From the NCBI RefSeq assembly GCF_000426685.1, contig NZ_AUFV01000007.1, forward strand, positions 62,001 through 126,000: a stretch of 64,000 nt of DNA, read 5' to 3'. Below the pieces are notes generated by a model. The model worked only from the letters and a program-made list of their open reading frames with translations. It did not search any database and was not told the DNA's origin. The translations under genes were made by a program, and so were the position numbers. Source of the stretch: Solimonas flava DSM 18980. GTDB taxonomy: Bacteria > Pseudomonadota > Gammaproteobacteria > Nevskiales > Nevskiaceae. Position 1 is the first letter of the stretch. The number at the start of each line of letters is the position of its first letter. Shown here piece after piece: positions 2,478-40,597 of the stretch.

Positions 2478-4778
2478 ATGGCCGTCTCCTTCCGCTCCGT
2501 CAAAATCGTCGCGATTTCGGCGCTCGTGCTGCTGCTCAGCATCGGCGGCGTCTTCTTCGCCGGTTATCTCATCAAGCTCGACCGCGAAATCCGCGATCGC
2601 TTCGCCGGCGCGCGCTGGGCGCTGCCGGCCCAGGTCTACGCCGCGCCGCAGGAGCTTTACGTCGGTCTGCCGCTGAACGCCCGCGATCTGGTGCACGAGC
2701 TGTCCCGCCTCGGCTATCGCGAGGACGCCGAGCTGGGCATGACCGGCACCTACAGCGCCGGCGCGCAGCGCGTCGATCTGTACGCGCGCGCTTTCAGCTT
2801 CTGGGACGGCCCGCAGCCGGCGCAGAAGCTCAGCGTTACCTTCAGCGGCGACATCGTCTCGGCCGTCACCGATGCGAGCAGCGGCGAGGCCCGCGATATC
2901 GTGCGCCTCGACCCGATGCTGATCGGCAGCATCTATCCGAAGCAGGGCGAGGACCGCGTGCTGGTGCGGCTCGCCGATCTGCCGCCGCTGCTGCCGAAGG
3001 GCCTGGTCGCGGTCGAGGACCACGACTTCTACTCGCATTCCGGCGTCAGCCTCAAGGCGATCCTGCGCGCCAGCGTCGCCAATCTGCGCGCCGGGCATGT
3101 CGTGCAGGGCGGCAGCACGATCACCCAGCAGCTGATCAAGAACTTCTTCCTCAACAGCCGGCAGACCTGGAACCGCAAGTTCAACGAAGCGTTCATGGCG
3201 CTGCTGCTGGAGAGCCACTACAGCAAGGACGAGATCCTCGAGGCCTATCTCAACGAGGTGCACGTCGGCCAGGACGGCAACCGCGCGGTGCATGGCTTCG
3301 GCCTCGGCGCGCAGTTCTATTTCAACAAGCCGCTCAACGAGCTGCGCCCGCACGAGATCGCGCTGCTGGTCGGCATCGTCAAGGGGCCGTCGTACTACAA
3401 CCCGCGGCGCAATCCGAAGCGGGCGACCGAGCGCCGCAATCTGGTGCTCGGCGTGTTCCGCGACGAGGGCCTGATCAGCGACGCCGACTACCAGCAGTAC
3501 GTGCAGATGCCGCTCGGCGTGGTCGGCGGTCGCGGCGGCGGTGTCGAGCGCTATCCGGCGTTCGTGCAGCTGGTGCGCCGCCAGCTGGAGGCCGACTACA
3601 AGGAAGAGGATCTCACCAACGAGGGTCTGCGCATCTTCACCACGCTCGATCCGCGCGCGCAGGAGGCGCTGGAGACACGCGTCCTCGAACAGCTGCCGCT
3701 GATCGAGAAGATGCGCAAGATCAAGCCCGGCCTGCTCGAAGCCGCCGGCGCGATCACCAGCGCCGACCGCGGCGAGGTGCTGGCGCTGGTCGGCGGCCGC
3801 GACGTGCGCTTCCCGGGCTTCAACCGCGCGCTCGACTCGCGGCGTTCGATCGGCTCGCTGGCCAAGCCCTTCGTCTACCTGACGGCGCTGCAGCAACCGG
3901 ACCAGTACAACCTCGAAACCGTGCTCGAGGACGAGCCGATCGAGCTCAAGCTGCCCGGCGCCGCGCTGTGGGCACCGAAGAACTACGACCGCCAGTTGCA
4001 CGGTCCGCAGCATCTCTATATGGCGCTCGCGCAGTCGTACAACCTGCCGACCGTGCGCCTCGGCCTCGCGCTCGGCCCGGATGCGGTGCTCAAGACCATG
4101 CGGGCCGCCGGTTACCAGGGCGAGGCCAAGGCGCTGCCGTCGATCTTCCTCGGCGCGCTCGACGCCTCGCCGCTGCAGGTCGCGCAGATGTACGGCACGA
4201 TCGCCTCCGGCGGCTTCCAGGCGCGGCCGTCGGCGATCCGCGAGGTGCAGACCAAGGAAGGCCAGCCGCTGCAGCGTTTCCCGCTGGAAGTGAAGCAGAC
4301 GATCGCCGAGGGGCCGGTTTATCTGCTGACCTGGGCCATGCAGAAGGTCATGACGCTCGGCACCGGTCGCGCGGCGTACACGCAGCTGTCGCCGGACGTG
4401 GTCGTGGCCGGCAAGTCGGGCACCACCGACGACTACCGCGACGCCTGGTTCGCCGGCTTCGGTGCCGATCGGGTGACGGTGATCTGGGTCGGCCGCGACG
4501 ACAACCAGTCGACCGGCCTGTCGGGCTCGTCCGGTGCGCTGCCGATCTGGTCGCGGGTGATGAAGGACCTGCACGTGCGCAGCATCGAGCCGATCCCGCC
4601 GGGCTCGGTCGAGGAAATCCTCATCGATCCCGACAGCGGGCTGCGCGCCGACGAGCACTGCTACAACGCCGTCACCGTTCCTTACCTGCGCGGCTCCGGT
4701 CCGCAGGACTGGGCGCCGTGCGCGGCGCAGGCGGAGCAGGGGCCGCTGCAATGGCTCAAGGACATTTTCGGGCACTGA
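2478..4778 (+). CDS. mrcB: Penicillin-binding protein 1B (bifunctional peptidoglycan glycosyltransferase/transpeptidase)
   Basis: 766 residues. Class A PBP that polymerises lipid II and cross-links peptidoglycan in the periplasm. It has a short cytoplasmic N-terminus, one membrane helix (about residues 10-31), a UB2H-like region (about 50-140), and a GT51 domain with catalytic Glu180 (V-E-D-H-D-F-Y) and the GGSTITQQ motif. The transpeptidase domain has S460-L-A-K, S-Y-N and K646-S-G-T motifs, all intact. The next gene downstream encodes a TPR lipoprotein, as for the Pseudomonas ponB-lpoP pair. Confidence 0.96.
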   Translation: MAVSFRSVKIVAISALVLLLSIGGVFFAGYLIKLDREIRDRFAGARWALPAQVYAAPQELYVGLPLNARDLVHELSRLGYREDAELGMTGTYSAGAQRVDLYARAFSFWDGPQPAQKLSVTFSGDIVSAVTDASSGEARDIVRLDPMLIGSIYPKQGEDRVLVRLADLPPLLPKGLVAVEDHDFYSHSGVSLKAILRASVANLRAGHVVQGGSTITQQLIKNFFLNSRQTWNRKFNEAFMALLLESHYSKDEILEAYLNEVHVGQDGNRAVHGFGLGAQFYFNKPLNELRPHEIALLVGIVKGPSYYNPRRNPKRATERRNLVLGVFRDEGLISDADYQQYVQMPLGVVGGRGGGVERYPAFVQLVRRQLEADYKEEDLTNEGLRIFTTLDPRAQEALETRVLEQLPLIEKMRKIKPGLLEAAGAITSADRGEVLALVGGRDVRFPGFNRALDSRRSIGSLAKPFVYLTALQQPDQYNLETVLEDEPIELKLPGAALWAPKNYDRQLHGPQHLYMALAQSYNLPTVRLGLALGPDAVLKTMRAAGYQGEAKALPSIFLGALDASPLQVAQMYGTIASGGFQARPSAIREVQTKEGQPLQRFPLEVKQTIAEGPVYLLTWAMQKVMTLGTGRAAYTQLSPDVVVAGKSGTTDDYRDAWFAGFGADRVTVIWVGRDDNQSTGLSGSSGALPIWSRVMKDLHVRSIEPIPPGSVEEILIDPDSGLRADEHCYNAVTVPYLRGSGPQDWAPCAAQAEQGPLQWLKDIFGH

Positions 4779-4862
4779 GGATGGCACTCCGGCGCGCGCG
4801 GCCGCGCGCCGGGGTCCGCCGGCTACAATAGCGACGTCGACCGCTCCCCCGGATTGCTTCCC

Positions 4863-5435
4863 GTGCGTTCAAAGCTGATCGTTGCCGTCGCCGCCCTCGT
4901 CCTGGCGGCCTGCCAGACCACGCAGGGTACCCACCAGATCTATCCGCCGGCCTCGGGGCCGCAGGCCGAGCCCTTGCCGCCGCCGCCGGCACAGCCGGAG
5001 CCCAAGCCGCTCGAAGCGCCGGCCGTGGTCGAGCCGCCGGCGCCGCCGCTCGCCAGCTTTCCGAAGAGCGCCGAGCAGATCAGCGGCAGCGCCGTCACCG
5101 CACTGATGAAGCAGGCGCGCCAGTACCGCAGCGCCGGCCAGCCGGACCGCGCCGCCGGCGTGCTCGAACGCGCACTGCGCATCGAGCCGCGCAACTACTT
5201 CGTCTGGTCGGCACTCGGCCAGGCCTATCTCGCCCAGAAGAACTACCTGCAGGCCGAGTCGGTCGCGCAGAAGTCGAACGCGCTGGCGCGCGGCAACGTT
5301 TACGTCGCCGTCGAGAACTGGAAGACGATCGCCGCCGCCCGCGACGCGCGCGGCGATGCCATCGGCGCGCTGCAGGCTTCGGCGCAGGTCGAGGCGCTGC
5401 AGGCGCAGCTGAGCGCGGCGCCGGGCACGCCGTGA
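4863..5435 (+). CDS. TPR lipoprotein, putative LpoP-type activator of PBP1B
   Basis: 190 residues from a GTG start; a TTG at 4854 adds only three residues. The signal peptide has lipobox L14-A-A-C17. A long Pro/Glu/Ala-rich disordered stretch (about 30-75) follows, then two to three TPR-like helical hairpins (about 80-175). Lipid anchor, proline-rich spacer, TPR domain and position directly after mrcB all match LpoP of Pseudomonas, the outer-membrane activator of PBP1b. The activator role is inferred from architecture and position. It is not similar in layout to E. coli LpoB, whose periplasmic domain is not TPR. Confidence 0.75.
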   Translation: MRSKLIVAVAALVLAACQTTQGTHQIYPPASGPQAEPLPPPPAQPEPKPLEAPAVVEPPAPPLASFPKSAEQISGSAVTALMKQARQYRSAGQPDRAAGVLERALRIEPRNYFVWSALGQAYLAQKNYLQAESVAQKSNALARGNVYVAVENWKTIAAARDARGDAIGALQASAQVEALQAQLSAAPGTP

Positions 5436-5469
5436 CGGCCGGCCGGCCGGTCGCGCCGGCGGCGCGCGC

Positions 5470-7413
5470 GTGACGCCGGAGGAGATCGCCGGACTGCTCG
5501 GCGACGGCGGTCCGTTCTCGGGCCTGCCCGGCTTCGCGGCGCGCGAGCCGCAGCAGCGCATGGCGGCGGCGGTCGCCGACGCCTACGAGCGCGAGGCCGC
5601 GCTGGTCGTCGAGGCCGGCACCGGCACCGGCAAAACCTATGCGTACCTGGTGCCGGCGCTGCTGTCCGGCAAGCGCACGCTGGTCTCGACCGGCACGCGC
5701 ACGCTGCAGGACCAGCTGTTTCATCGCGATCTGCCGCGCGTGCGCGATGCGCTGCGCGCGCCGGCCCGCGTCGCGCTGCTGAAGGGCCGCGCCAACTATC
5801 TGTGCCTGTACCGCATGAAGCGCGCGCGCGGCCTGCCGGCGCTGCGCTGGGCCTGGGACCGGCTGCGCGCGATCGAGGACTGGGCGCGGCGCACCGACGC
5901 CGGCGAACTGGCGGAGCTCGGACCGGTCATCGGCGAGGCGCGCGAGGACGACGGCCTGGTGCGGCAGATCACCTCGACCGCCGACAACTGCCTCGGCAGC
6001 CGCTGCGACGACTTCGAGCAGTGCTTCGTCGCGCGGGCGCGGCGCAACGCGCAGGCCGCCGATCTCGTCGTCGTCAACCACCATCTGCTGCTCGCCGACT
6101 TCGTGCTGAAGGACCAGGGCTTCGGCCAGATCCTGTCCGGCAGCGACGCCATCATCATCGACGAGGCCCACCAGCTGCCGGAACTCGCGGCCGAGTTCTT
6201 CGGCCGGCGCGTGTCGACGCGCCAGCTGCAGGAGCTCGCGCGCGACGTGCAGGCCGAGGCGCAGTTGCAGCCGGACCTGTCGGCGCTGGTCGAGGCGGCG
6301 CAGGTCTTCTCAGGCGACGTCACGCGCTTCGAGCAGCTGTTCGCCGGCCTGCCGCAGCGCCAGCCGCTGACGGCCTTCCTCGCCGACGACGAGCGCCGCC
6401 GCGTCGCCGAGCAGGTCGGCGATTCGCTGGCCGGTCTGCGCCAGATGCTGTCGCCGCTCGAGGAACGCGATGCCGAGTTCGCCGCCGCACTGGAGCGCGC
6501 CGTCGGGCTGCTCGAACGCTGGACGCATGTGCTGCGCGAGCCGCCGCCGCCCGCCGAGGCGGAGGCGGCGGCGCTGCACGAAGTGCGCTGGGTCGAGGCG
6601 CTGATCCGCGGCGGCAGCGTCAACGCGACGCCGATCGAAGTCGCCGACGATTTCCAGCGCATGCGCGAGACCTATCCGGGCACCTGGCTGTTCACTTCGG
6701 CGACGCTCGCGGTCGGCGAGGACTTCGGGCACTTCAGCCGCGCGCTCGGGCTCGACGACGCGCAGACGCTGCGCCTCGACAGCCCCTTCGATTACGCGCG
6801 GCAGGCGCGCCTGTACCTGCCGTCCGGGCTGCCGGAGCCGAACGATCCGCGCTATCCGCTGGCGGTCGCCGCCGCCGCGCAGCCGGTGATCGAGGCCGCC
6901 GGCGGCGGCGCCTTCGTGCTCTGCACCAGCCATCGCGCGCTGCGCCAGATCGCCGAGCGCCTGCGCGCCCAGCTCAAGCTGCGCGTGCTGGTGCAGGGCG
7001 ATGACAGCCGCTCGGCGCTGCTCGACGCCTTCGCCGAGGACGGCAATGCCGTGCTGGTCGGCACCAGCAGCTTCTGGGAGGGCGTCGACGTCAAGGGCAG
7101 TGCGCTGCGCTGCGTGATCATCGATCGCCTGCCGTTCGCGGCGCCCGGCGATCCGGTATTCGAGGCCAAGCTCGACGCGATCCGCCGCCGCGGCGGCACG
7201 CCGTTCTTCGACCTGCAGTTGCCGGAGGCGATCGTGATGCTGCGTCAGGGCGCCGGCCGCCTGATCCGTGATCCGTCCGACCGCGGCCTGCTGATGCTTT
7301 GCGATCCGCGCATCAGCTCGAAAGCCTACGGCCGCCGCGTGCTGGCGAGCCTGCCGCGCATGCCGGTGCTGCGTGAGCTCGACGCCGTGCGAGAATTCCT
7401 GTCCACGCTATGA
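5470..7413 (+). CDS. yoaA: YoaA/DinG-family ATP-dependent DNA helicase (XPD-like, Fe-S)
   Basis: 647-residue superfamily 2 helicase. Walker A G50-T-G-T-G-K-T56, DEAH box at 231-234, and a C-terminal helicase domain with the Q-G-A-G-R-L-I-R motif. Four cysteines (112, 174, 179, 185) have the spacing of the XPD/DinG 4Fe-4S cluster. It lacks the nuclease extension of long DinG proteins, and its length fits YoaA, which is linked to tolerance of stalled replication. GTG start; the stop overlaps the start of tsaB by four bases, an arrangement that matches the yoaA-tsaB neighbourhood of E. coli. Confidence 0.9.
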   Translation: MTPEEIAGLLGDGGPFSGLPGFAAREPQQRMAAAVADAYEREAALVVEAGTGTGKTYAYLVPALLSGKRTLVSTGTRTLQDQLFHRDLPRVRDALRAPARVALLKGRANYLCLYRMKRARGLPALRWAWDRLRAIEDWARRTDAGELAELGPVIGEAREDDGLVRQITSTADNCLGSRCDDFEQCFVARARRNAQAADLVVVNHHLLLADFVLKDQGFGQILSGSDAIIIDEAHQLPELAAEFFGRRVSTRQLQELARDVQAEAQLQPDLSALVEAAQVFSGDVTRFEQLFAGLPQRQPLTAFLADDERRRVAEQVGDSLAGLRQMLSPLEERDAEFAAALERAVGLLERWTHVLREPPPPAEAEAAALHEVRWVEALIRGGSVNATPIEVADDFQRMRETYPGTWLFTSATLAVGEDFGHFSRALGLDDAQTLRLDSPFDYARQARLYLPSGLPEPNDPRYPLAVAAAAQPVIEAAGGGAFVLCTSHRALRQIAERLRAQLKLRVLVQGDDSRSALLDAFAEDGNAVLVGTSSFWEGVDVKGSALRCVIIDRLPFAAPGDPVFEAKLDAIRRRGGTPFFDLQLPEAIVMLRQGAGRLIRDPSDRGLLMLCDPRISSKAYGRRVLASLPRMPVLRELDAVREFLSTL

Positions 7414-34819: not shown

Positions 34820-37800
34820 TCAACCGGGCGCGCGTTTGCCGATGGTTTCGGTCGCGGTCCAGATCAGGAACTTAGGATGTCCCTGGTGATCGGAGGCGCT
34901 GCTTTCGGACCATTGCAGCTGCAGCACGGCTCCATCACGGTGACGCCAGCCGCCGCCGCGCCGGTAAACCGTGCCGGGCCGCCGTGCAGCGAGCGCCGCG
35001 TGCAGGCTCGTCTGTTCGGACGCCGGAATCAATGGAAGATCCCAGACGCTGTGACCGTAGACTTCCTCAAAGCTGTAGCCGGAGGTTTGTTCGCAGCGCC
35101 GGTTGAAGCGCAGGATGCGCCCGTCGGGTGTCGTGATCATGATCAGCGCGTCGACGGCGTCGACGGCCGCCTGGGTCTGCTCGAATTCTTCCTGAAGCCG
35201 TTCGGTGCGCTCGGAGACCCGAAGTTCCAGCTCGCCGTTGAGCTGTTGCAAGCGCGCTTCGGCCTTCTTCTGTGCGCTGATGTCGGTGAAGGTCAGCACC
35301 GCGCCCTCGATGCGGTTGTCCGTCGTGCGGTACGGGGTGATCCGGCGCAGGTACCAGTGCTCGCTTTCGACCTGGACTTCCTTCTCGCGTGCGGCCAGCG
35401 ATTCGATCGCCGCGGCCACGTCGGCGCTCAGGTCCTCATCCTCGAAGCGCCAGACGATATCGGTCAACGGCCGGCCGATATCGCCGGCGATGACGCGGAA
35501 CAAGCGCGTCGACGCGCGCGTGAAGCGTTTGAGCGTGAGGTCGGCGCCGAGGAACAGGGTGGCGGTGTCGGTGCTCGCGAGCAGGTTGCCAAGATCATTG
35601 TTGGCATCTTCGAGCGAGGCCAGCTTTTCCTGCAGCTGGCTGTTGACGGTCGACAGCTCTTCGTTCAGTGACTGCAGCTCCTCGCGCGAGGTTTCGAGCT
35701 CCTCGTTGGCGGCCTGCAGTTCCTCGTTCATCGACAGGATTTCCTCGTTGGAGCCGCGCAGCTCCTCGTTGGCGTTCTCCAGCTCTTCGACGGTGATCTG
35801 CAGCTCTTCGCGCGCGCTCATGAGCTCGGTCTTGAGCTGCGCGACCAGGCCTTCATCGGCCGGGTCGGTGGCAGCCGTGCGGTGGCGCCGCGTCGCGCCC
35901 TCCGGCGGGTTGCGGAAAGTGACCAGAACCAGGTTTTCCGGCGATGGTGTCCCGACCAGCGGACGAGCGGACACCGTGACTTTCGGCAGCCCGGAGGCGC
36001 GCGTGCCGCGGCCGCTGCCCAACTCGATGCGCCGATGCTCTCGGATCGCCTTGTTGACGGCCGTGCGCACGTGGGCGCGCAAGCCGTCGCTGCACAAGGC
36101 CAGCAGATCGCGCGTCGGCTGTCCGCTCGGTTGCCGAAGGTAAGTGCCGGTGTTTCCGTGGAAATACAGCACCTCGAAATTCGGCCGCACCAGCACCGCT
36201 GCCGGCGCGTAGTCTTCGATCAGCGCGGCACGGGTCATCTCCGCGGCCGAGATCGCCGGCAACTGCGCCGCCGCCGGCAATGTGATGCGGGAGATCGGTG
36301 CCGGCGCGACCGGGAGTTCCAGGCGCAGTCGCTGGCGGTCGTACGGGCGTCGGCGGTATATGCGCCAGCGCTTGGCTACCGCTTCGAACAGATCGGCGCG
36401 GGCGCCGACCGTTTCGGACGGCCCGAGCAGCAGGTAGCCGCCGTCGTTCAAGGCGAAATGAAAGATGCCGACCAGTTGCTGCTGTACGTCGGGCTCCAGA
36501 TAGATCAGGAAGTTGCGGCAGCTGAGCAGGTCGATGCGCGAGAACGGCGCGTCGCTGAGCAGGTTCTGCTGGGCGAACAGCACGGACTCGCGCAGATCTC
36601 TGCTGACCTGGTAGCGATGTTCGTCGATCTTGACGAAGTGTTGGGCCAGCCGCTTGGGGCTGATGTCGGTCAACTCGGTGTCGAGGTAGATGCCACGACG
36701 GCCGACATCGAGTGCGTCGGTTTCGAGGTCGGTGGCGAACACTTGCAGCGGATTCGAGCGCCCGGCGGCGGTGAGCTGTTCCTGCATGACGATGGCCAGC
36801 GAATAGGCCTCCTCTCCAGTGGCGCAAGCCGGCACCCAGATCCGCAGCGGCGCGTCTGCGGGTTTGTTGCGTAACAGCTCCGGGATGACCTGCGTCTCCA
36901 GCTGGCCGAACATTTCCGGGTCGCGGAAGAACTGCGTGACGGAAATCAGCAGGTCCTTGGCCAGCAGCCGCGCCTCTTCCGGCTTTTGCTGCAGCAGTGT
37001 CAGGTAGTCGGCGCCGTTGCGCAGGTGATGAAGCCCCATGCGCCGCAGCAGCCGGCGCCGCAGCATGCCCTTGCGATAGCCGCGAAAATCCAGCCGTGTC
37101 TGAGAGCGCAGCAGCGCAAGCACCTGCAGCAGCAGGTTGATGCCGACCGCAGCCTCCTTGGTGCCGTGCGCCCGGTCGGCGAACCGGTGCGCGGTATAGT
37201 CGAGCAGGGCCTTCGGCATCGCTTCCGGAGGCAGCACGTAGTCGGCGAGGCCGGTGGCGATCGCATTTTCCGGCATGTCCTTGTGCTCGGCGCTGTCCGG
37301 GGACTGCACGAGGATGACGCCGCCCTGGGCCTTGACCGCCTTGATGCCGCTGACGCCGGCGTTGCTGGTGCCCGAAAGGACGATGGCGATCGTCTGGTCC
37401 TGCAGGTCGGCGGCCAGCGAGCGAAAACCTTCGTCGATGACATTGTGCGGCCCGCTGCGCTCGATCGGTCCGTCGAGCCGCAGGATGCCGGCGCTGCTGG
37501 AGACATAGCGATTCGGCGGAATCACGTAGACATGGTTGGCGACGAAGGGCTCGCCGTCGCGCACCTCGGTAACCGGCATGCGCGTGTGCTTCTTGAGCAC
37601 TTCCGACATCAGGCTTTCACGGTTCGGATCGAGATGCGGAATCAGCAGGAACGACATGCCGCTGTCGGGGGGCATCGCCTCGAAGAAGCGGATGTAGGCG
37701 CTCAGGCCGCCGGCGGACGCGGCGATGACGACCAACGGCAACGCAGTGGAGGCATCGGCATCGGATGCGGATGTGTGGGGGCTGGCCTCGGCCGGCGTGG

Positions 37801-37876
37801 CGCTGGCAGTCTCCGCTGGTTTCCCCAGGGCTTTCTTGCTGCGCGTTGAGGCTGGCGGTTTTTTGTTTCCGCGCAT
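34820..37876 (-). CDS. CheB-CheR-PAS fusion sensory protein with degenerate CheB triad
   Basis: 1018 residues. A disordered Ala/Ser/Thr-rich head (1-45) precedes a CheB-like methylesterase domain with Ser54 (A-S-A-G-G) and His81, but the catalytic Asp position reads Ala173 (S-G-T-S-N-A-G). Then comes a CheR methyltransferase domain (about 245-500) with C-A-T-G-E-E-A-Y-S, and PAS-like segments. A long coiled coil of repeated E-E-L-x3-N-E-E-L units (about 660-745) leads to two C-terminal PAS domains. No histidine-kinase or GGDEF domain is attached. Same strand as, and about 230 bp upstream of, the GGDEF-EAL gene. GAGGT SD. Confidence 0.92.
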   Translation of the reverse strand: MRGNKKPPASTRSKKALGKPAETASATPAEASPHTSASDADASTALPLVVIAASAGGLSAYIRFFEAMPPDSGMSFLLIPHLDPNRESLMSEVLKKHTRMPVTEVRDGEPFVANHVYVIPPNRYVSSSAGILRLDGPIERSGPHNVIDEGFRSLAADLQDQTIAIVLSGTSNAGVSGIKAVKAQGGVILVQSPDSAEHKDMPENAIATGLADYVLPPEAMPKALLDYTAHRFADRAHGTKEAAVGINLLLQVLALLRSQTRLDFRGYRKGMLRRRLLRRMGLHHLRNGADYLTLLQQKPEEARLLAKDLLISVTQFFRDPEMFGQLETQVIPELLRNKPADAPLRIWVPACATGEEAYSLAIVMQEQLTAAGRSNPLQVFATDLETDALDVGRRGIYLDTELTDISPKRLAQHFVKIDEHRYQVSRDLRESVLFAQQNLLSDAPFSRIDLLSCRNFLIYLEPDVQQQLVGIFHFALNDGGYLLLGPSETVGARADLFEAVAKRWRIYRRRPYDRQRLRLELPVAPAPISRITLPAAAQLPAISAAEMTRAALIEDYAPAAVLVRPNFEVLYFHGNTGTYLRQPSGQPTRDLLALCSDGLRAHVRTAVNKAIREHRRIELGSGRGTRASGLPKVTVSARPLVGTPSPENLVLVTFRNPPEGATRRHRTAATDPADEGLVAQLKTELMSAREELQITVEELENANEELRGSNEEILSMNEELQAANEELETSREELQSLNEELSTVNSQLQEKLASLEDANNDLGNLLASTDTATLFLGADLTLKRFTRASTRLFRVIAGDIGRPLTDIVWRFEDEDLSADVAAAIESLAAREKEVQVESEHWYLRRITPYRTTDNRIEGAVLTFTDISAQKKAEARLQQLNGELELRVSERTERLQEEFEQTQAAVDAVDALIMITTPDGRILRFNRRCEQTSGYSFEEVYGHSVWDLPLIPASEQTSLHAALAARRPGTVYRRGGGWRHRDGAVLQLQWSESSASDHQGHPKFLIWTATETIGKRAPG

Positions 37877-38031
37877 GAGTTTTTACCTCAAGTGAAGGTC
37901 GGCAGCGTACGCTCCGGCCCGATGCTTGGACAAGCGTGGGTCCGGGGTTTGTGAACGCCGTTGGCGGCGCTGCGCGGCTGGCCGCGAGGCTCGATCGGGA
38001 CGACAATGGCGCCGGTCGGGATGCAACGAGC

Positions 38032-39105
38032 GTGGACAAGATCATCAAGGGCAGGGGTACCGCGGCGCGACCGGAGGGGCGTTTCGAATCGCGGCGCGTC
38101 GAACGCTTCGACGACGGCTGGCTGCTCGACGAAGAAGCGCTGCCGCGGCTGGCGACGACGCTGCATGCCGAGCAGGCGCGCACGATCATCGCGCGCAACG
38201 ATTCGCCGGACCTGCCGTTCGCGCAGTCGATCAATCCGTATCGCGGTTGCGAGCACGGCTGCATCTATTGTTATGCGCGGCCGACGCATGCCTACCTGAA
38301 TCTGTCGCCGGGCCTCGATTTCGAAACGCAGCTGTTCTACAAGCCGAACGCCGCGGCGCTGCTGGAGGCAGAGCTGCGCCGGCCCGGCTACCGCTGTTCG
38401 ATGATCTCGCTCGGCGCCAACACCGATCCTTACCAGCCGATCGAGCGGGACTTGCGCATCACGCGCAGCCTGCTCGAGGTGATGGCGCGCTTCCGCCATC
38501 CGGTCGGCATCGTCACCAAGGGCACGCTGGTCGAGCGCGATGTCGATCTGCTGCAGGATCTGGCGCGCGACGGCCTGGCGATGGTCGCGGTCTCGATCAC
38601 CACGCTCAAGCCCGAGCTCAAGCGCACGCTGGAGCCGCGCGCCGCCTCCGGCGCGGCGCGCCTGCGCGTGATCAAGACCTTGGCCGACGCGGGCATTCCG
38701 ACGATGGTGCTGTATTCGCCGGTCATACCCTTCGTCAACGATGCCGAGCTCGAAAGCATCCTCGCCGCGGCGCACGCGGCCGGCGCGCGCCAGGCGGCGC
38801 ATATCCCGCTGCGCCTGCCGTACGAGGTGAAAGACCTGTTCCGCGAATGGCTGGAAGCGCATCTGCCGCTGAAGGCCGCGCACGTGATGAGCCTGGTCCG
38901 GCAGATGCGCGGCGGCCGCGACAACGACCCGGCCTTCGGCAGCCGCATGACCGGGCAGGGCGAATACGTGCGCATCATCCACCAGCGTTTCGATCTGGCC
39001 TGCCGGCGTCTGGGCCTGAATGTCGGCGAGCGCAGCGCCTGGCTGTCGACGACGCAGTTCCGCGTACCGCCGCAGGCCGGCGATCAGCTGGACCTGGCGT
39101 TCTGA
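38032..39105 (+). CDS. PA0069-family radical SAM protein (spore photolyase-like)
   Basis: 357 residues from GTG 38032. The radical SAM cluster is N-P-Y-R-G-C-E-H-G-C-I-Y-C-Y-A-R-P (CxxxCxxC). I-K-G-R-G near the start and F-E-T-Q-L-F-Y-K-P-N match the PA0069/Rv2578c family related to SplB, for which DNA-repair or other roles are proposed but not established. The start was chosen at the conserved K-G-R-G-T; an in-frame extension to 37936 has no such conservation. Divergent from the CheB-CheR gene. Confidence 0.88.
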   Translation: MDKIIKGRGTAARPEGRFESRRVERFDDGWLLDEEALPRLATTLHAEQARTIIARNDSPDLPFAQSINPYRGCEHGCIYCYARPTHAYLNLSPGLDFETQLFYKPNAAALLEAELRRPGYRCSMISLGANTDPYQPIERDLRITRSLLEVMARFRHPVGIVTKGTLVERDVDLLQDLARDGLAMVAVSITTLKPELKRTLEPRAASGAARLRVIKTLADAGIPTMVLYSPVIPFVNDAELESILAAAHAAGARQAAHIPLRLPYEVKDLFREWLEAHLPLKAAHVMSLVRQMRGGRDNDPAFGSRMTGQGEYVRIIHQRFDLACRRLGLNVGERSAWLSTTQFRVPPQAGDQLDLAF

Positions 39106-39151
39106 AGCGGGGCGCCCCTTATACTGGCTGCCTAAACGGGAAGGGGCTGCT

Positions 39152-40597
39152 ATGACGGATCGCGGCAGTGTCAGGGTTCAGAATACCGGTGCGTTCTACG
39201 ACGATCTGGAAAAGCTGTTGCTGCGCCAGATCGCCAGCCAGCCCACGGTCCTCGACCTGCGGCTGAAGCTGGCCGAGCTGTACTACGAGACGCGTCGGGT
39301 CGAAGCCTTTGTCAAACTGGCGCGGCAGGTTCAGACGATGATTCCGAATCTGCGACGCTCCCCGGACTGGGGGCGCATCGTCAGCATGGGGCGCATCATC
39401 GCGCTCGACGATCCGATGTTTCTCGAGGCCGAAGTCGCCGACAGGGTCGAGTACATCACCGCCAAGGCGTCCGTGGTGCGCGACTACAAGCGCATCGGCG
39501 AGGAAGAGCGTTTCCGCAAGCCGCTCGCCGCGGTCGCCGAGGCCTATGAGGCCGTGCGCAAGGATCCGCGCTTCATCGCCGAACTCGACGCCGAGTTGAT
39601 CCAGAGTGCCGGCCACCCGACCTCGTTGCAGTTCGCGGCCGCGCTGTCGCGCCATGCCGGCGGCGCTCGCATCTATCTGAAGCGCGAGGATCTCAGTGCG
39701 CAGTCCTCGCATCTGCTCGCGGCGATCTACGGCCAGGCGATGCTTGCCAAGCGCATGGGCAAGAAGACCCTGGTCGGCTTCAGCACCAACGGCCGCAGCG
39801 GCGTGGTGCTCGCCTCGGTGGCGGCGCGGCTGGGACTCGATGCCGTGGTCTACATGGACAGCGGCCAGATGCAGCTGCAGGCGAGCAATCTGTTCCGCAT
39901 GTGGATGATGGGCGCCCAGGTTCTGGAGGCCGGCACCGGGCCGAGCAAGACCGGCGACATCCGCAAGGAGGCCTGGGGGCACTGGGTTGCCAATCTCGGC
40001 GAATGTTTTCTGGTGATGGGACTCGATGCGGCGCCGCACCCGTATCCGATGCTGGCGCTGGAAATGGCGTCGGTGGCGGGGCGTGAATGTCGCCGCCAGC
40101 TGTATGCGATCAACAAGAAGGTTCCGGACCTGCTGGTCGCGCGCGCCGGCGACAATGCCGATGCGGTCGGCCTGTTTCCGCCATTCCTGCGCGCGACCGG
40201 CACGCGGCTGGTTTGCGTTGAAGCGCGCGACCATCTCGATGCGGCCGCCGAACGCGGCAACGGCGGGCCGCAGGCCTTGACGCTGCAGGAGCAGCAGCGC
40301 GCGGCGGTGATCCTCGAAGGCATGGATTACCCGCGCACGACGCGCGAACACGCCTGGCTGAAGGCCAGCGGCCGCGTCGAGTACGTGAAGGGTTCGTCAG
40401 CCGCGGCCAAGCGCGCGGTCTACGACCTCAGCAAGCACGAGGGCGTGATTCCGGCGATCGAGACGGCGTACGCGCTCGGCTGGGCGCTGCAGGAAGCCGC
40501 CAAGATGAGTGCCGAGCAGTCCGTCATCGTGATGGTCTCCGAGCAGGTCGACAAGAACATCTGGCAGATCGGCCGGGCCATGGGCGTGCCGCTGTAG
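39152..40597 (+). CDS. TPR-TrpB fusion protein lacking the PLP lysine (tryptophan synthase beta-like pseudoenzyme)
   Basis: 481 residues. Residues about 15-60 form helices with a FimV/TPR-like L-R-L-K-L-A-E-L-Y-Y-E pattern. From about 118 to the end the protein follows TrpB closely: A-E-A-Y-E-A-V-R-K-D-P-R-F, I-Y-L-K-R-E-D-L, P-H-P-Y-P-M, Y-P-R-T-T-R-E-H-A-W-L-K. However, the catalytic His-Lys pair is H187-L188, the catalytic Glu position (Glu109 of Salmonella TrpB) is Phe210, and the G-G-G-S-N phosphate loop reads G-D-N-A-D. It therefore should not form the PLP Schiff base. No trpA is adjacent. ATG 39152 has an AAGGGG SD, and a TATACT -10-like element sits at 39120-39125. Confidence 0.85.
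   Translation: MTDRGSVRVQNTGAFYDDLEKLLLRQIASQPTVLDLRLKLAELYYETRRVEAFVKLARQVQTMIPNLRRSPDWGRIVSMGRIIALDDPMFLEAEVADRVEYITAKASVVRDYKRIGEEERFRKPLAAVAEAYEAVRKDPRFIAELDAELIQSAGHPTSLQFAAALSRHAGGARIYLKREDLSAQSSHLLAAIYGQAMLAKRMGKKTLVGFSTNGRSGVVLASVAARLGLDAVVYMDSGQMQLQASNLFRMWMMGAQVLEAGTGPSKTGDIRKEAWGHWVANLGECFLVMGLDAAPHPYPMLALEMASVAGRECRRQLYAINKKVPDLLVARAGDNADAVGLFPPFLRATGTRLVCVEARDHLDAAAERGNGGPQALTLQEQQRAAVILEGMDYPRTTREHAWLKASGRVEYVKGSSAAAKRAVYDLSKHEGVIPAIETAYALGWALQEAAKMSAEQSVIVMVSEQVDKNIWQIGRAMGVPL

Follow-up and report, generated by a model that had tools for sequence, protein, structure and literature searches.

What use does a bacterium have for a tryptophan synthase beta chain (TrpB) that has lost its catalytic residues and carries a head of tetratricopeptide repeat (TPR) type at its N-terminus? 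This question is raised by a gene for a protein of 481 residues in a 64,000-nucleotide stretch of the genome of Solimonas flava DSM 18980 (contig NZ_AUFV01000007.1, positions 62,001 to 126,000), which as a whole is called the window in the following. The gene belongs to a conserved family, so far found only in one bacterial order, the Nevskiales, in which a TPR of the polar organiser FimV is joined to a dead TrpB, and it is under purifying selection. The family probably works through the binding of partners and not through catalysis. For the window gene we favour, at a probability of roughly 0.6, the reading of a soluble FimV-derived adaptor or scaffold with the C-terminal dead TrpB as its docking module.

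A TrpB fold without its active site

Residues 123-475 of the window protein match the trpB model TIGR00263 (E 4e-74; 249.9 bits, under the curated cut-off of 392.45), and the Pfam family PALP is matched with 73 bits at a cut-off of 35. The host's own TrpB is 40% identical over residues 119-480, the TrpB fold is whole, and solved TrpBs are the best solved-structure match. An earlier interpretation of the letters alone, here termed the sequence-only reading, had taken the C-terminal 360 or so residues for a TrpB homologue, with which these matches agree, and its open reading frame and translation proved correct. The layout of the gene is as follows.

39138..39146, + strand: GGGAAGGGG, a likely ribosome-binding site, 5 bases 5' of the ATG
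39152..40597, + strand: whole gene (open reading frame and translation), 481 residues, FimV-type TPR head and catalytically dead TrpB
39185..39436, + strand: TPR head, residues 12-95, helical in the predicted model and by profile matches homologous to FimV's internal cytoplasmic TPR
39437..39487, + strand: linker, residues 96-112, of low model confidence (predicted local distance difference test, pLDDT, <50 at 98-111)
39488..40594, + strand: TrpB fold (pseudoenzyme domain), residues 113-481
39710..39715, + strand: His187-Leu188 at the His-Lys position by alignment, the Schiff-base lysine being lost
39779..39781, + strand: Phe210, aligned at the position of the catalytic glutamate
39938..39991, + strand: residues 263-280, the segment that bears the TrpA-contact lysine and arginine in TrpB; here Gly268 and Gly276
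40142..40144, + strand: Arg331, just before the former phosphate loop (21/21 in clade I; cysteine in 32/33 canonical TrpBs)
40148..40162, + strand: GDNAD (residues 333-337) where canonical TrpB has its phosphate loop GGGSN; Asp337 in 21/21 clade I proteins
40232..40333, + strand: residues 361-394, mostly a low-confidence loop (pLDDT <50 at 361-376 and 378-394), a conserved segment in TrpB
40343..40345, + strand: Arg398 (31/31 fusion proteins; proline in 33/33 canonical TrpBs)
40541..40543, + strand: Glu464 (21/21 in clade I; glycine in the canonical SGRGDKD motif)

Alignment to solved TrpBs places HL187-188 on the His-Lys pair, F210 on the catalytic glutamate and GDNAD on GGGSN, just as had been read from the sequence; the first two losses correspond to what we take to be K87 (Schiff-base lysine) and E109 (catalytic glutamate) in Salmonella TrpB numbering. 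In a single alignment, from which duplicates and matches of fewer than 300 residues had been removed, Lys at 188, Glu at 210 and GGGSN were each present in 0/31 fusion proteins, and all three in 33/33 canonical TrpBs (23 from Nevskiales, 7 from other bacteria and 3 of a second TrpB type). The exchange at position 188 is thus a family-wide loss of the lysine, and none of the 31 members is a close homologue that retains it. Two members (L021 and L022) have a lysine one residue before 188, with the glutamate and GGGSN lost in both. Seven ordinary TrpBs from loci L074-L081 hold all three elements, L080 being left out as too short. The second TrpB type (L039, L040 and L046) bears the lysine, lacks the usual TrpA-contact arginine and forms its own branch in the tree.

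The losses extend well beyond the catalytic residues. To describe them, retention was defined as the share of those columns nearly invariant in the 23 canonical TrpBs of the order that is kept by clade I, the group of 21 fusions to which the window protein belongs; the remaining 10 'distant' fusions are a bin and no demonstrated clade. Retention in clade I is 0.52-0.61 in residues 113-177, 219-262, 281-326 and 399-460. It is lower in the lysine loop (0.31), in the glutamate loop (0.27), around GGGSN (0.42), in residues 343-385 (0.20) and in the TrpA-contact segment (0.30). Of the two residues of that segment which we presume to contact TrpA, the lysine is found in 1/31 fusions (33/33 canonical) and the arginine in 4/31 (30/33 canonical). 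The loop 361-394 presumably also lies near the TrpA face.

New residues have also become fixed. Arg331, Asp337 and Glu464, which sit in segments that form the pyridoxal phosphate (PLP) site in TrpB, each occur in 21/21 clade I proteins and in 0/33 canonical TrpBs; the distant fusions are without Arg331 and Glu464 and have Asp337 in 3/10. Arg398 is common to 31/31 fusions and likewise absent from the canonical set (0/33). The new clade I residues may occupy the emptied cleft, or they may serve to bind another partner or molecule.

The ratio of nonsynonymous to synonymous substitution rates (dN/dS) is 0.06-0.27 across seven pairs of fusion genes. For the window gene and its counterpart in S. variicoloris it amounts to 0.12 overall, with 0.21 for residues 1-112 and 0.09 for the TrpB part. 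Taken together with the lysine's absence from all 31 members, these values uphold the earlier proposal of a selected, non-catalytic protein, for which ligand sensing and scaffolding, the roles named in the sequence-only reading, are both possible.

The FimV-type head

A TPR/FimV-like N-terminus had already been suspected, and a profile of the clade I head (residues 12-122) indeed matches canonical FimV at an internal cytoplasmic position in 6/6 fetched genomes, with E values of 9e-16 to 1e-13 that refer to a small database of fetched frames. The helical, TPR-like character attributed to the head is also seen in the predicted model, which has five helices within residues 11-91 (11-29, 34-47, 50-61, 71-83 and 88-91). 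In the host FimV the profile matches residues 584-660 of an 859-residue frame whose strongest hydrophobic stretch lies at 430. A comparable arrangement is described for Pseudomonas putida FimV: in addition to the C-terminal TPR there is an internal one, at 487-556, which follows a membrane helix at 388-408, and polar placement requires the LysM and Ig-like domains (PMC12918733). Against solved structures, the head profile retrieved the TPRs of RanBP2 and of the 131 kDa subunit of transcription factor tau, and no FimV.

In six relatives (L041, L042, L044, L045, L119 and L120) a single frame encodes FimV_N (PF25800), the TPR and the dead TrpB; L119 scores below the PALP cut-off. L041, L042 and L045 are examples with both FimV_N and a membrane helix, and in L043, L047 and L023 a membrane helix lies near the start but Pfam gives no FimV_N match. 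Both features are missing from the window protein, and none of nine further clade I proteins that were examined has a start-proximal helix of membrane kind. The conserved unit is hence that of TPR and dead TrpB, with the periplasmic and membrane parts present in some members and missing from others. The window protein gives 20 NCBIfam matches at E ≤1, and the C-terminal FimV domain TIGR03504 is not one of them; in the host genome this domain matches ordinary FimV only. Ordinary FimV is kept beside the fusions, as TIGR03505 and TIGR03504 were both found in 19/20 genomes checked, the exception being a genome that is 79% complete. FimV_core matches beyond ordinary FimV, some of them below the cut-off, occur in G015, G032, G043, G045 and G049; one of those in G015 is the fusion L119.

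Distribution in the Nevskiales

For the distinction of fusions from canonical genes, a junction profile was built that runs from the head into TrpB. With it, at least 31 fusion genes, one frameshift-split copy included, were found in at least 26 of 85 Nevskiales genomes, spanning four families of the order. Among the matches listed, 30 fusion genes (31 with the split copy) extend from profile columns 2-4 to 169-172; the other listed matches cover the first part only (FimV) or the second part only (TrpB). The window protein itself is less discriminating as a query: 58 of the 61 genomes searched with it (host included) match at E ≤1e-30, mostly via canonical TrpB. Beyond the order, the junction profile found 1/369 in a class sample and 1/398 in a phylum sample, each the host itself, at E-value limits of 1e-25 and 1e-22; both samples are sparse, and the weakest known fusion (8.8e-25, G078) would escape the class limit, the phylum limit being little looser. 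In a plasmid collection 119 records match, and among the best 20 listed the annotated ones are trpB. The split copy, from the Nevskia metagenome-assembled genome HOG36 (G023; L019 / L071), has its frameshift between the head and the TrpB part, through either assembly error or real loss.

Origin of the fusion

In the host genome fimV, truA, trpF and trpB are adjacent in this order on one strand, with the end of fimV 1.5 kb before the trpB frame (L082), and this proximity suggests a route to the fusion. A further copy of the stretch may have lost the end of fimV together with truA and trpF, which would directly yield the order seen in the fusion, the FimV TPR followed by TrpB. TrpB would thereby have replaced two parts of FimV, the acidic tail and the C-terminal domain, and the dead TrpB could then have given a polar landmark protein a module for docking client proteins. 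In later copies, the window gene included, the membrane anchor would have been lost along with the periplasmic part, leaving cytosolic adaptors of TPR and dead TrpB. The tree has a branch with 100/100 support and the 31 fusions all on the same side of it, consistent with a single origin.

Adaptor, sensor, activator or enzyme?

The adaptor reading is favoured on the loss of the active site in all 31 fusions, with further losses in the TrpA-contact segment, on the head's homology to FimV, on the relatives with FimV_N in the same frame, on the adjacent fimV and trpB genes of the host and on purifying selection. Several points weigh against it, however. Polar action in the host species is conjecture, as FimV reaches the pole through its membrane anchor and periplasmic part, both of which the window protein lacks. 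Gene neighbours common to the whole family were not seen beyond Solimonas, and within the host's genus the gene is patchy (6/11 genomes). FlhF, a polar flagellar GTPase, shows no association, being over the cut-off in 17/26 fusion genomes and 37/59 others; this and the lack of family-wide neighbours speak against any polar role. Finally, several long branches in the tree make a false grouping possible.

The main rival, which we regard as possible if doubtful, is that the PLP cleft of clade I was rebuilt for another small molecule, perhaps an anion or an amino acid, whose binding is read out via the TPR head. The emptied site is indeed not random in clade I, given the invariance of Arg331, Asp337 and Glu464 and their absence from canonical TrpBs, and dN/dS indicates stronger constraint on the TrpB part (0.09) than on the head (0.21). 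Yet two of the three residues are missing from the distant fusions and Asp337 is found in only 3/10 of them, and the Arg-Glu pair is equally explicable as packing in an empty cleft. A more specific version is more tentative still, namely that in the Solimonas clade a ligand site of these three residues might couple a metabolite to the FimV/HubP network of polar organisation; if true, this would be a sensor made from two neighbouring genes, fimV and trpB.

Chemistry without the TrpB lysine, or with PLP held through another residue, seems very improbable. A whole and strongly conserved fold would suit a changed enzyme, as would the lysine one residue away in two members, but changes are also seen in the phosphate loop, at the SGRGD glycine (Glu464 in clade I) and over most of the glutamate loop. 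Moreover, just two lysines, K177 and K468, are retained by 90% or more of clade I; canonical TrpB has both, and K468 is present in 0/10 distant fusions. Very improbable, too, is a dead TrpB that docks on TrpA and causes it to give off free indole in the manner of the plant TSB-like proteins. A TrpA match does exist in 25/26 fusion genomes (the remaining one is 79% complete), yet the contact lysine and arginine are nearly gone, retention is low in the contact segment (0.30) and in 343-385 (0.20), the FimV head sits on the TrpB N-terminus, and the host trpA lies on a separate contig; the contact losses in particular are evidence against an activator of this type. That the gene is a decaying pseudogene or a sequence error can practically be dismissed: one copy is frameshift-split, but 30/31 are open, the losses are identical in 26 genomes, and dN/dS is low in all seven pairs.

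Gene neighbourhood

37936..39105, + strand: PA0069-family radical SAM protein, on the strand of the fusion gene and 46 bases upstream of it

This gene upstream and carA downstream (for the window, a probable assignment from the open reading frame) recur in five Solimonas genomes, host included, and marR and hmgA lie between the fusion gene and carA in the host and S. variicoloris. The window gene is flanked by hmgA and fahA of tyrosine breakdown. The sequence-only reading had seen neither trpA nor any other amino-acid gene nearby; as regards trpA this stands, the host gene being on contig G000:C1, but the flanking hmgA and fahA, and carA if correctly named, contradict the remainder. Elsewhere the neighbours are ppsA (three loci), methionyl-tRNA synthetase, starch synthase, thiolase or aconitase, and at two loci what we take to be a helicase and mnmG stand beside the fusion. 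A shared neighbourhood was therefore discarded as a clue to function, the neighbours differing among lineages. Co-occurrence with PilQ was likewise set aside as uninformative, PilQ being over the cut-off in 84/85 genomes.

Some further neighbours may be recorded. In Stenotrophobium, a PAS-GGDEF-EAL protein (2949-5936, + strand) is encoded about 44 bases upstream of the fusion copy (L052, 5980-7449) on the same strand, and three further copies have GGDEF-type genes in their vicinity. HubP and FimV reportedly interact with GGDEF proteins; the proximity is only a lead, since enzymes of cyclic di-GMP are numerous. A thiolase gene adjoins three membrane or FimV-type fusions (L043, L047 and L119), and a LuxI-type autoinducer synthase gene (L044, 806-1426) is found upstream of a FimV-dead-TrpB gene. 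The window also encodes a CheB-CheR-PAS fusion protein at 34820-37876 on the - strand.

Comparison with known systems

A description of the FimV-dead-TrpB fusion was not found in a literature search, most subscription journals and bioRxiv being outside its coverage. Dead TrpBs (in plants) and FimV variants are separately known; what would be new is the joining of the two. With canonical TrpB (TIGR00263) the window protein shares the fold, the length and 40% identity to the host enzyme; it differs in lacking the Schiff-base lysine, the catalytic glutamate, GGGSN and the TrpA-contact lysine and arginine, and in its fused TPR head. The cell poles of bacteria are organised by FimV and HubP, whose action is decided by the binding partners of the cytoplasmic part. 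Compared to these proteins (PF25800, TIGR03505, TIGR03504), the internal cytoplasmic TPR is homologous, and FimV_N and the membrane helix are found in some relatives, whereas the window protein is without FimV_N, the membrane helix and the C-terminal FimV domain and has a dead TrpB there instead. In the fusions this cytoplasmic part has been replaced by a dead metabolic enzyme, seemingly from a gene of the neighbouring operon, and the combination has been kept across four families, which makes the fusions a natural test of how an enzyme turns into a binding module.

A further parallel is offered by the plant TSB-like proteins, which are likewise catalytically dead TrpB paralogues, arose by duplication, differ in two key residues, keep 69% of the interface with TSA, the plant TrpA, and activate TSA (PMC12727527). 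The fusions, as far as can be judged from their alignment, took a different course, having lost most of the TrpA-contact segment along with the PLP site and gained the FimV TPR. They provide a bacterial dead TrpB for comparison with the indole-releasing TSB-like proteins of plants.
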